A stretch of 23,853 nucleotides of DNA from a virus: positions 1 to 23,853 of the IMG/VR virus record IMGVR_UViG_3300042484_000447; one strand, given 5' to 3'. Under the pieces are notes generated by a model that worked only from the letters and a program-made list of their open reading frames with translations, was not told the origin of the DNA and made no database searches. Each line of letters opens with the position of its first letter. Position 1 is the stretch's first letter. Positions 1,105 through 3,027 of the stretch are shown here, in pieces. The translations under genes and the position numbers were made by a program.

Positions 1105-1539
1105 ATGTCATGGCTATTTGAATCCACTTTAGTGGAAGTACTTCCTGAAGATTGCGTAGGATTTGTGTATTTGATAACAAATACAGTATCTGGACGTAAA
1201 TATATAGGTAAAAAATTAGCTAAATTTTCAAAAACTACTTATAAAGTAGTCAAGCTCAAAAATGGTAACAAAAAACGAAAGAAGATTAGAAGTAAAATAG
1301 ACTCGGATTGGCAAACGTATTATGGGTCAAACGACGAATTAAATCAAGATATACAGACACTAGGTCAAGACAATTTTAAAAGAGAAATACTCTACTACTG
1401 CAATTCCAAAGCACAATGCTCGTACATAGAAGCGCGAGAACAATTTAGACACCAAGTCTTAGAATCAGATGCGTACTACAACGGACAGATCAGCGTTCGT
1501 GTCCATGGCTCCCACATTAAAAACAAGTTAGGCAGTTAA
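1105..1539 (+). CDS. GIY-YIG-family endonuclease, SegE-like
   Basis: This 144-residue basic protein has a GFVYLITN strand (residues 19-26) followed by KYIGKK (32-37), the paired strands that define the GIY-YIG nuclease fold. Further on are YYGSN (72-76) and YIEA with a Glu near 109 in the place of the family's metal-binding glutamate. A Lys/Arg-rich insertion at about 43-64 (NGNKKRKKIRSK) probably contacts DNA. The arrangement resembles the free-standing SegE-type endonucleases of T4-like phages, which nick or cut DNA and spread as selfish genes. An in-frame TAA at 1096-1098 limits the start to the ATG at 1105. No strong ribosome binding site precedes it. The gene ends directly beside the structured region at 1542, an adjacency typical of mobile introns or their remnants, although no interrupted host gene is visible. 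Confidence 0.8.
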   Translation: MSWLFESTLVEVLPEDCVGFVYLITNTVSGRKYIGKKLAKFSKTTYKVVKLKNGNKKRKKIRSKIDSDWQTYYGSNDELNQDIQTLGQDNFKREILYYCNSKAQCSYIEAREQFRHQVLESDAYYNGQISVRVHGSHIKNKLGS

Positions 1540-1541
1540 GC

Positions 1542-1849
1542 TAGCACAAGCTAATATCGTGTGCCCTATACCTGGTAGAAATACGCAGGGATGGAAGACT
1601 CGCCGCTGCAACGAGCACTCAACTACTACCCGCAAGGATGAGGATCGCAAACGCCGCGATTTAGTTGTTTGAATAGGATAATATGGCTAGAAAGACGTAG
1701 CAGCGATGCTACACGTTTATATAGTAGGCTAGTATCTATTGTGTAAACCGCCGTTGTATAAGAACGGAGCTCGAGGTACAGGACAACCGCCTCTGTAATG
1801 CTCTAATACTAGTGACTGTGCTAACTCAGATGAAGTGCATTTATTTTTT
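1542..1849 (+). ncRNA. Candidate structured non-coding RNA, family unknown
   Basis: This stretch has no convincing protein gene but many consistent helices on the plus strand. TAGCACA (1542-1548) pairs with TGTGCTA (1817-1823) and would close the domain. Inside it are CCTG-GTA/TAC-g-CAGG with a GAAA loop (1571-1589); CTCG/CGAG (1599-1615); ATCGC/GCGAT (1644-1660); AC-GTAGCA/TGCTAC-ac-GT with a GCGA loop (1695-1716), enclosed by CTAG/CTAG (1687-1690 and 1729-1732); CCGTT/AACGG (1751-1767); and GAGG/CCTC (1773-1793). Two loops are GNRA tetraloops. A T-rich run (1841-1849) follows the closing helix and could mark the 3' end. It precedes convergent minus-strand genes, so it is not a leader of a downstream gene. 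I could not match it to tmRNA, RNase P RNA, a group I core or a cobalamin riboswitch. The strand is inferred from the GNRA loops. Confidence 0.45.
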
Positions 1850-1865
1850 GCCCGCCCTGGGCAAA
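1847..1865. repeat. Perfect 7-bp inverted repeat (hairpin)
   Basis: TTTGCCC and GGGCAAA are separated by five bases (GCCCT). No T-run follows the hairpin on either strand in the position a classical terminator needs; the T-run precedes it on the plus strand. It may be a boundary structure between the RNA-like region and the minus-strand genes. Confidence 0.5.
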
Positions 1866-1893
1866 GACTGACCATTGAATCTAGATGAAATCT

Positions 1894-1930
1894 CTAAAAA
1901 CAATGTTGATGAGCTTTAGCGAAATCAACA
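1894..1930 (-). terminator. Rho-independent terminator for the minus-strand baseplate genes
   Basis: Read on the minus strand, TGTTGAT and ATCAACA form a 7-bp stem (plus-strand 1904-1910 and 1924-1930), followed by a T-rich tract (complement of 1894-1903). A second smaller hairpin, GATGAC/GTCATC (1931-1946), lies between this stem and the stop codon of the small minus-strand gene. Together they form a tandem-hairpin transcript end. Confidence 0.65.
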
Positions 1931-1946
1931 GATGACGTTAGTCATC

Positions 1947-2159
1947 TTAGAAGAATGGCATTCCTGACTTCTTGGAAGTTTCTAAATTATCTTTAATTAT
2001 CTTGCTAATGAGTTCTCGATCAGTGTTGCTTAAGAGCATGGCATCTTCGTAGTTAAGACCACCCCTCATATACCAGCTGAATCTTAGAGCTTCTTCTCTT
2101 AAGGCTTTTGACTGTTTCTCTAATCTATCAAAATAATCAACCATGTCATCGTTTGACAT
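1947..2159 (-). CDS. Small conserved T4-like phage protein paired with the baseplate hub gene
   Basis: The start is taken as the ATG at 2159 (MSNDDMVDYF, 70 residues) and not the TTG two codons upstream at 2165. An AAGG overlapping the end of the hub gene lies about 9 bases before this ATG. The protein is highly charged and helical, with a segment RFSWYMRGGLNYEDAMLLS and a Lys-rich tail ending GMPFF. Small proteins with this W/YMRGG-type core occur beside gp26-like genes in aquatic T4-like phages, and may act in hub assembly in the way T4 gp51 does. That role is inferred from position and general likeness only. It follows the hub gene by 11 bases, shares its transcript, and is followed by the terminator pair at 1894-1946. 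Confidence 0.7.
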   Translation of the reverse strand: MSNDDMVDYFDRLEKQSKALREEALRFSWYMRGGLNYEDAMLLSNTDRELISKIIKDNLETSKKSGMPFF

Positions 2160-2170
2160 AGCCAAAAGCC

Positions 2171-3007
2171 TTAGGCGAAAAAATTTGATTCTTCAAATGT
2201 TAAGTCTGAGCTGTATTCTTTTGTGCAACTCTGACAGGCTATGTTCATTGGGTGTAGTTTGTTGTTTTTAGATATATTTTCTACTGTAGTTTTAATTTCA
2301 TTGTATAATGCAGTTTCACAATTATAAATGAATTCTTTAATAAACTTTTCTTCAGCTACTTGAGTTCCGTCTTTGGTTACAATAGATTCTATAGCATTAA
2401 CAATAGTCATTATGTTTAGATCAGTGATCTTGGGGAATAGATCTTTAAACTGTTCCATTTTTTGTTCTTCGGTCAAATCACTGCTGGTAATTGCCATTAT
2501 TAGTTTTTGTTGTTCAAACGAATAAAGATTTGCTTTGTTTAGTGATTCAAAAATTAAAGGTTTAATGTTAAATGTTAACTCGCCTATTTGCACTGCAGGA
2601 AAATCTGGTGCTGGCAACGAATCAAGTAGTGTTCCAAGATCAACTGTGTTTAAGTTTTCCTCTCCACAATGTGGGCACTTAGTGGTAATGTCCATGTCTG
2701 ACCCGTAGCTAGCAATACGTATAGAAATCATTATTGGATCTAGGTCTATTGTTGGTATAGCCCAAGCGTTTTTGATACTTGGACAACAACTTTGTATAAC
2801 ATTTACCATACCTTCACCGTTCATTAGGGCGTCTGGGGTTTTGAATGTTATTTCATCTTTGACAGTCATTGGGTATACAGGGATTTCACCTGATGCGGGC
2901 AAATCAATTGCAGATTCGTCCCAATACTGCCCCTGACTAGGTAGCTTTAAGTAGATAGCAGGTTGTCTAAAGTGTTTAAAAAGTGGATTATTTGCTGTAA
3001 TCGCCAT
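2171..3007 (-). CDS. T4 gp26/gp51-family baseplate hub protein
   Basis: The N-terminus (YLKLPSQGQYWDES, then GEIPVYPMTVKDE and LMNGEGMVNVIQSC) follows the pattern of the T4 baseplate hub family that includes gp26 and gp51: a Pro-rich opening, a 'pMt..dE' strand and a conserved Cys-containing helix. Two Cys pairs, CPHCG in the middle and CQSC near the C-terminus, could together bind zinc. The C-terminal half is helical. The product should act in assembly of the central hub of the baseplate. The start is taken as ATG at 3007 (MAITANNPLF, 278 residues) because GGGAATC precedes it at suitable spacing; the ATG at 3022 has no ribosome binding site. A perfect T4 late promoter octamer lies on the minus strand at 3040-3047. 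gp26 and gp51 cannot be told apart by eye. Confidence 0.78.
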   Translation of the reverse strand: MAITANNPLFKHFRQPAIYLKLPSQGQYWDESAIDLPASGEIPVYPMTVKDEITFKTPDALMNGEGMVNVIQSCCPSIKNAWAIPTIDLDPIMISIRIASYGSDMDITTKCPHCGEENLNTVDLGTLLDSLPAPDFPAVQIGELTFNIKPLIFESLNKANLYSFEQQKLIMAITSSDLTEEQKMEQFKDLFPKITDLNIMTIVNAIESIVTKDGTQVAEEKFIKEFIYNCETALYNEIKTTVENISKNNKLHPMNIACQSCTKEYSSDLTFEESNFFA

Positions 3008-3019
3008 GGTGTTGATTCC

Positions 3020-3027
3020 CATAAATA
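3020..3027 (+). promoter_or_regulatory. T4-type late promoter element CATAAATA
   Basis: One mismatch from the T4 late consensus TATAAATA. It sits 32 bases before the ATG at 3060, so it fits a transcript starting near 3034 and reading the tape-measure-like gene. Confidence 0.6.

Follow-up and report, generated by a model that had tools for sequence, protein, structure and literature searches.

What is encoded by the roughly 300 bases without a protein gene that follow a GIY-YIG nuclease gene in this viral DNA (the window, 23,853 nt)? The initial annotation had proposed a free-standing structured RNA of unknown class at 1542–1849. As it had described, the region begins directly at the stop of ORF 1105–1539 and is devoid of protein genes, with no ORF of at least 50 aa in 1540–1946 on either strand.

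Identity and extent of the RNA

The Infernal search that the initial annotation had suggested (cmscan against Rfam) gave a match to Polynucleobacter-1 (RF01718) at 1539–1670 (+), with 106.7 bits over model positions 1–141 of 141. As this score is above the gathering cut-off of 37 bits, the segment 1539–1670 is a member of Polynucleobacter-1 (hereafter Poly-1). A structured phage RNA is therefore present as proposed, but its class is not entirely new, as the 5' third belongs to RF01718. Conservation among homologues extends well past the end of the Rfam model, from ~1531 to ~1947, and the end of the RNA was set near 1947 based on this conservation and on a minus-strand ORF ending at 1947. The limits 1542–1849 were thus too narrow on both sides: the RNA starts slightly earlier, with 1532–1535 engaged in helix P0, and this strand lies within the final GIY-YIG codons, so that the 5' end of the RNA overlaps the gene. 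RF01718 covers only the 5' third of a phage noncoding RNA of ~420 nt. No tRNA or tmRNA was detected by ARAGORN. The main features are:

1105–1539 (+), GIY-YIG nuclease ORF (PF19835 SegE_GIY-YIG, phrog_447; E 4.7e-34)
1531–1947 (+), whole structured RNA, ~417 nt (limits estimated from conservation)
1539–1670 (+), RF01718 Polynucleobacter-1 domain, 5' third (Rfam match)
2171–3022 (−), T4 baseplate protein, PF12322 (E 2.4e-16), the syntenic anchor

Polynucleobacter-1 goes back to Weinberg et al. 2010 (PMC2864571); Table 1 of that paper lists it as RNA 'y', cis-reg 'y' and switch '?', from Burkholderiales and fresh water/estuary. No further paper naming it was found among the open-access papers searched. 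The Rfam family is known, but neither Rfam nor these papers were found to describe the complete length of the window RNA, its architecture, its slot in phages, the twin-repeat tail or the sharing of this tail between RNA bodies. A pattern built from the 5' domain occurs in at least 120 stretches of IMG/VR; in bacterial genomes it matched three MAGs. For one of these MAGs, 401 genomes of its family were scanned for RF01718, which turned up in 2 of them and added a further locus (L133). BLASTn returned no match to named phages for Poly-1, cow-rumen-2 or class 3 RNAs (the latter two are described below), and none to plasmids for the bacterial Polynucleobacter-1 form.

Secondary structure and covariation

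Single-sequence folding of the RNA is unremarkable (z 0.48), so the evidence for structure is comparative. Using 64 sequences of <92% identity, dozens of column pairs were found to covary as Watson–Crick pairs. In a stricter alignment (A2, 23 sequences, <82% identity), the structure model consists of 16 helices totalling 83 pairs, four pseudoknot interactions included, and is 95.4% paired, with both-sided changes in 56 of the 83 pairs. The covariation score is 0.455 compared with 0.167 after shuffling, and 0 of 500 shuffles reached the observed score; covariation in the homologous regions of related phages, which the initial annotation had named as a check, was thus confirmed. It disappears once the helix partners are slid, a control somewhat biased towards the model since the model was derived from the covariation of these same homologues. 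The helices of the RF01718 model (equivalent to P1–P6) are paired and covarying in A2, and the core taken alone gave a likewise positive result. The two-sided changes are direct evidence for the following structure model:

1532–1535 with 1606–1609 (+), P0, long-range pseudoknot helix; 95.7% paired, two-sided changes in 3 of 4 pairs
1539–1541 with 1550–1552 (+), P1a, forming an H-type pseudoknot with P1; 92.8% paired, covarying
1544–1548 with 1560–1564 (+), P1; 99.1% paired, covarying
1572–1577 with 1582–1588 (+), P2; covarying or invariant in homologues
1697–1701 with 1708–1712 (+), P7, GCGA loop; covarying or invariant in homologues
1713–1813 (+), core, supported by covariation, with P8, P9, P10, P11 and P12
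1715–1727 with 1736–1748 (+), P8 hairpin; covarying or invariant in homologues
P8 loop with 1806–1812 (+), P9, pseudoknot
1753–1757 with 1783–1787 (+), P10, crossing P11 and P12
1766–1770 with 1800–1804 (+), P11, crossed by P10
1773–1776 with 1790–1793 (+), P12, loop UACAGGACAACCG

Most helices of the initial annotation (P1, P2, P7, P8 and P13) recur in this model as covarying or invariant pairings, but the helix 1542–1548/1817–1823 that was thought to enclose them all does not: it is 55.7% paired in homologues versus 54.4% after shuffling, and 1544–1548 pairs with 1560–1564. Similarly, the GAAA and GCGA tetraloops exist in the window, but the P2 and P7 loops vary in homologues. Positions 1629 and 1639 in the P5 loop swap between C.U and U.C, a non-Watson–Crick exchange between two forms across phages, perhaps reflecting a tertiary contact.

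Twin repeats in the 3' tail

Downstream of the core, the RNA carries a tail with two short repeats:

1823–1834 (+), repeat R1, AACUC-AGAUGAA, predicted unpaired
1847–1865 (+), hairpin P13 between R1 and R2, 1847–1853 with 1859–1865; 94.4% paired
1878–1889 (+), repeat R2, AAUCU-AGAUGAA
1905–1929 (+), 3' hairpin, GUUGAU-GA-GCUUUAGC-GAA-AUCAAC, internal loop GA/GAA; 1906–1907/1928–1929 covary
1930–1947 (+), final hairpin and probable 3' end, AGAUGAC/GUCAUCU; 1931–1935/1941–1946 covary

The consensus is NNA-CUC-RNAURAW for R1 and NNA-UCU-RNAURAW for R2. The 7-mer of R1 (1828–1834) equals that of R2 in 63 of 64 phages, yet it varies between phages, in about ten forms. Columns 1829/1884, 1832/1887 and 1834/1889 are identical in 64/64 and 1828/1883 in 63/64. 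When R2 was swapped among phages, the longest string common to R1 and R2 fell from 7.1 to 5.5, with the observed value reached in 0 of 2000 permutations; this outcome holds for both Poly-1 and cow-rumen-2. No strand within the RNA covaries with R1 or R2, so that no intramolecular partner was found, and in 845 kb of flanking DNA the phages' own repeats, as motif or complement on either strand, show no enrichment. Residues of the GIY-YIG, gp46 and baseplate (PF12322) proteins single out no protein partner. The 3' hairpin resembles a hammerhead (UGAUGAG..CGAAA); this identity was rejected as the stem covaries through the motif, with GUUC..GAAC in other phages.

Two apparently unpaired sites that are equal within but not between phages suggest a shared, changing reader. 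Based on these sequence patterns, the explanation we tentatively favour is a stand-alone scaffold RNA that would act in trans, whose pseudoknotted body may serve as a stable platform presenting two identical single-stranded motifs. Both repeats would bind the same partner at two sites; this could be an RNA-binding protein of the phage or its host, or an RNA, which would thereby be sequestered, recruited or held in two copies. The concerted evolution of the repeats is proposed to result from partner specificity that shifts between phages, pulling both repeats along.

Against this explanation, the concerted repeats could be processing sites or DNA elements. The main rival is a self-processing or catalytic RNA, in which cleavage or ligation would take place at both repeats, each with the same recognition sequence, so that the hairpin between them is excised or the RNA circularised. 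It would account for two identical, apparently accessible sites with a fixed CUC versus UCU difference around a hairpin, and the body is large and pseudoknotted. However, the RNA contains no covarying guide strand and matches no ribozyme or intron family in Rfam, and we consider self-processing unlikely.

Other RNA bodies

The core has no Rfam family of its own. Its best match is a weak one to cow-rumen-2 (RF02947) at 1716–1815, which scores 20 bits with an E of 0.4 over 701 bases, below the gathering cut-off of 66 bits; an RF02947 search of 16 other Poly-1 loci gave no match at that search size. About 60 loci of cow-rumen-2 were located; they lie on phage contigs as long as 424 kb, with multiple copies per genome. 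In the reverse direction, a Poly-1 core model searched against 21 cow-rumen-2 loci gave 11 matches at E ≤ 10, all on RF02947 sites (best E 0.005). Against whole jumbo genomes, 3 of 5 matches fell on RF02947 sites and 2 elsewhere, so that single E-values are weak. The gene next to the main cow-rumen-2 copy encodes PF12322 (E 6e-8), and another copy adjoins gp46. Up to four copies occur per contig (L138–L201), with repeat variants that differ by copy, and a Bacteroidetes-type promoter box, TAnnTTTG, lies upstream of cow-rumen-2 in about 8 of 19, which points away from a leader here too.

A different RNA body was found at the GIY-YIG locus of L299, where the slot is filled by an unrelated-looking RNA that has no match in Rfam but carries the same tail. 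A 17-mer from this RNA matched 45 stretches, 42 of them real, and 43 loci of this class 3 were tabulated including L299. Their neighbours include GIY-YIG in 34, PF12322 in 29, gp46 in 21 and the portal gene in 19. Where the class 3 repeats have the standard motif, they are identical in 33/38 and differ in the last base in 5/38; four further loci carry GGUUAAUGUAA twice. Some class 3 column pairs covary, e.g. C-G/U-A at 247/262 of L473; the larger alignment is noisy, and RNAalifold found only 3 compensatory pairs. Tail-only patterns gave at least 120 matches each, those with ACAU variants mostly class 3, and require near-identical repeats, hence they carry no evidence for concertedness. Many class 3 carriers are apparently marine. 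In five loci (L463, L501, L482, L526 and L492) the tail occurs on further RNA bodies that fit poorly to Poly-1 and class 3, and eleven class 3 or other-body loci gave no meaningful Rfam match. Taken together, the tail of the Poly-1 body also occurs, at the equivalent slot in sister phages, joined to a body belonging to another class.

This sharing bears on whether the repeats work as DNA, i.e. as recombination, replication-origin or protein-binding sites separate from the upstream RNA. Direct repeats with identical cores that enclose an inverted repeat would suit such elements, but two or more distinct RNA bodies carry the tail, which lies on their strand and directly after the core, and the DNA reading is improbable. 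For the scaffold RNA, the wider picture may be a widespread and as yet unrecognised modular phage RNA family in which interchangeable large bodies (Polynucleobacter-1, cow-rumen-2-like, class 3 and others) share a twin-repeat tail locked to a fast-changing trans partner, with bodies swapped at the slot between gp46/GIY-YIG and baseplate; we regard the case for such a family as almost evenly balanced.

Genomic context

The RNA occupies a fixed address in T4-like phages. The gene order is constant: gp47-like, gp46-like, GIY-YIG (PF19835), the RNA, then a 72-aa ORF on the minus strand, the gene for the PF12322 baseplate protein and that for the portal. A homing-endonuclease element at variable sites was rejected since synteny is fixed in >100 loci. 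An ORF is inserted between GIY-YIG and the RNA in five loci. Across L015, L028, L037, L077, L117, L252 and L310, differing ORFs (150–334 aa in the first five) lie in this gap, or after GIY-YIG where the RNA was not reached, and the gap looks like an insertion hotspot. Upstream in the window, the ORFs at 19–1094 show a weak adh_short match; their homologues in L121 form one fused protein, radical-SAM-like and short-chain-dehydrogenase-like.

The proximity of the nuclease gene raises the alternative that the RNA and the GIY-YIG protein form a complex in which the nuclease would read or cut the repeats. Among the matches listed, a GIY-YIG gene is found no more than 1.5 kb upstream of 71/75 Poly-1 and 77/77 class 3 tails; of the 67 close GIY-YIG relatives for which the sequence suffices, 64 have the RNA; and in L471 and L533 the gene, though downstream, still adjoins the RNA. 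Synteny is, however, explained by the common ancestry of the phages, and the bacterial and cow-rumen-2 relatives have no neighbouring GIY-YIG. Members of the gene family are present in 419 named phages, for the most part cyanophages, and the Poly-1 core model finds no match in Melnitz, phiN3, ACP17 and P-RSM4, all of which have the gene. In addition, GIY-YIG residues track the repeat variants no better than those of the control proteins gp46 and baseplate, which gives no reason to prefer the nuclease as the reader, and we rate this complex as rather doubtful. Members of phrog_447, the family of the window's GIY-YIG gene, are widely labelled 'NAD synthetase' in named phages, which looks like a propagated misannotation.

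A cis-regulatory role on a neighbouring gene would agree with the 'cis-reg' entry of Weinberg et al. 2010. The downstream genes vary, however, and the ORF lies on the opposite strand in 31 of the 62 loci having one. Among the 31 co-oriented loci, 29 have ATAAATA, the T4 late-promoter core, between the RNA and the ORF, and this box is otherwise nearly missing within 600 bases upstream or 900 downstream. Since half of the downstream ORFs face the RNA and most of the rest have a late-promoter-like box, the RNA is not a 5' leader, as had been concluded from the minus-strand genes to its right in the window. The cis-regulatory reading is largely refuted for the phage form and has very little probability left. 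Even less can be said for an intron remnant, which the initial annotation had considered, or for decayed coding sequence: apart from the neighbouring GIY-YIG gene, nothing points that way, and with no split gene, no group I/II match, no ORF, a conserved intergenic slot and compensatory changes, the chance is negligible.

In all four bacterial loci (L123, L126, L127 and L133), a divergent DUF6641 (PF20346) gene lies beside the RNA. The DUF6641 gene occurs in 14 of the 401 genomes of that bacterial family, mostly without the RNA, and the bacterial-type core was found in no viral contigs. L126 also has integrases, and L127 a type III restriction-modification system. In L226, a tRNA gene that lies downstream from a DUF6641 gene contains a group I intron (791–1004), perhaps marking an integration site; the intron was discarded as a link to the RNA because it lies in the tRNA gene, not at the position of the RNA, and was judged a coincidence.

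Comparison with known systems

The proposed scaffold RNA would have a functional analogue in CsrB/RsmZ-type RNAs, which sequester an RNA-binding protein at repeated motifs. The likeness, that a structured RNA contains a short single-stranded motif more than once, is an analogy only: here there are two copies, the motif shifts in concert between phages and there is no conserved GGA. GOLLD, ROOL and OLE (PMC12286853) are likewise large and intricate RNAs from environmental, bacterial or phage DNA with mostly unknown function, and the RNA has no Rfam match to any of them.

With Polynucleobacter-1 (RF01718) the likeness is in the 5' domain, where 1539–1670 covers all 141 model positions far over the cut-off. 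The Rfam model lacks the core, the concerted-repeat tail and pseudoknots P0, P9 and P10, and the family was listed as probably cis-regulatory, whereas the window form is free-standing in a phage slot. The RNA gene is abundant and syntenic in uncultivated T4-like phages of lakes, seas and guts and has mostly escaped annotation: pieces of it are listed in Rfam under two names that bear no relation to each other, and the searches run there gave no entry for the marine class 3. The tail consensus NNA-CUC-RNAURAW ... NNA-UCU-RNAURAW provides a sequence handle for finding carriers. The lock-step motifs suggest a definite, fast-changing partner, whose identity could reveal a new phage–host or phage–phage RNA interaction.

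Cow-rumen-2 (RF02947) shares with the window RNA the P8 hairpin, the P11/P12 nesting and a near-identical P12 loop, UAC(A/C)GGAYRACCG, and its unmodelled 3' extension also has concerted repeats around a hairpin. It differs in the partner strand of the P8-loop pseudoknot and in the 5' domain and, unlike the window RNA, is multicopy in jumbo phages without an adjacent GIY-YIG gene. Judged from these shared elements and from the PF12322 and gp46 neighbours, Poly-1 and cow-rumen-2 probably have a common origin.
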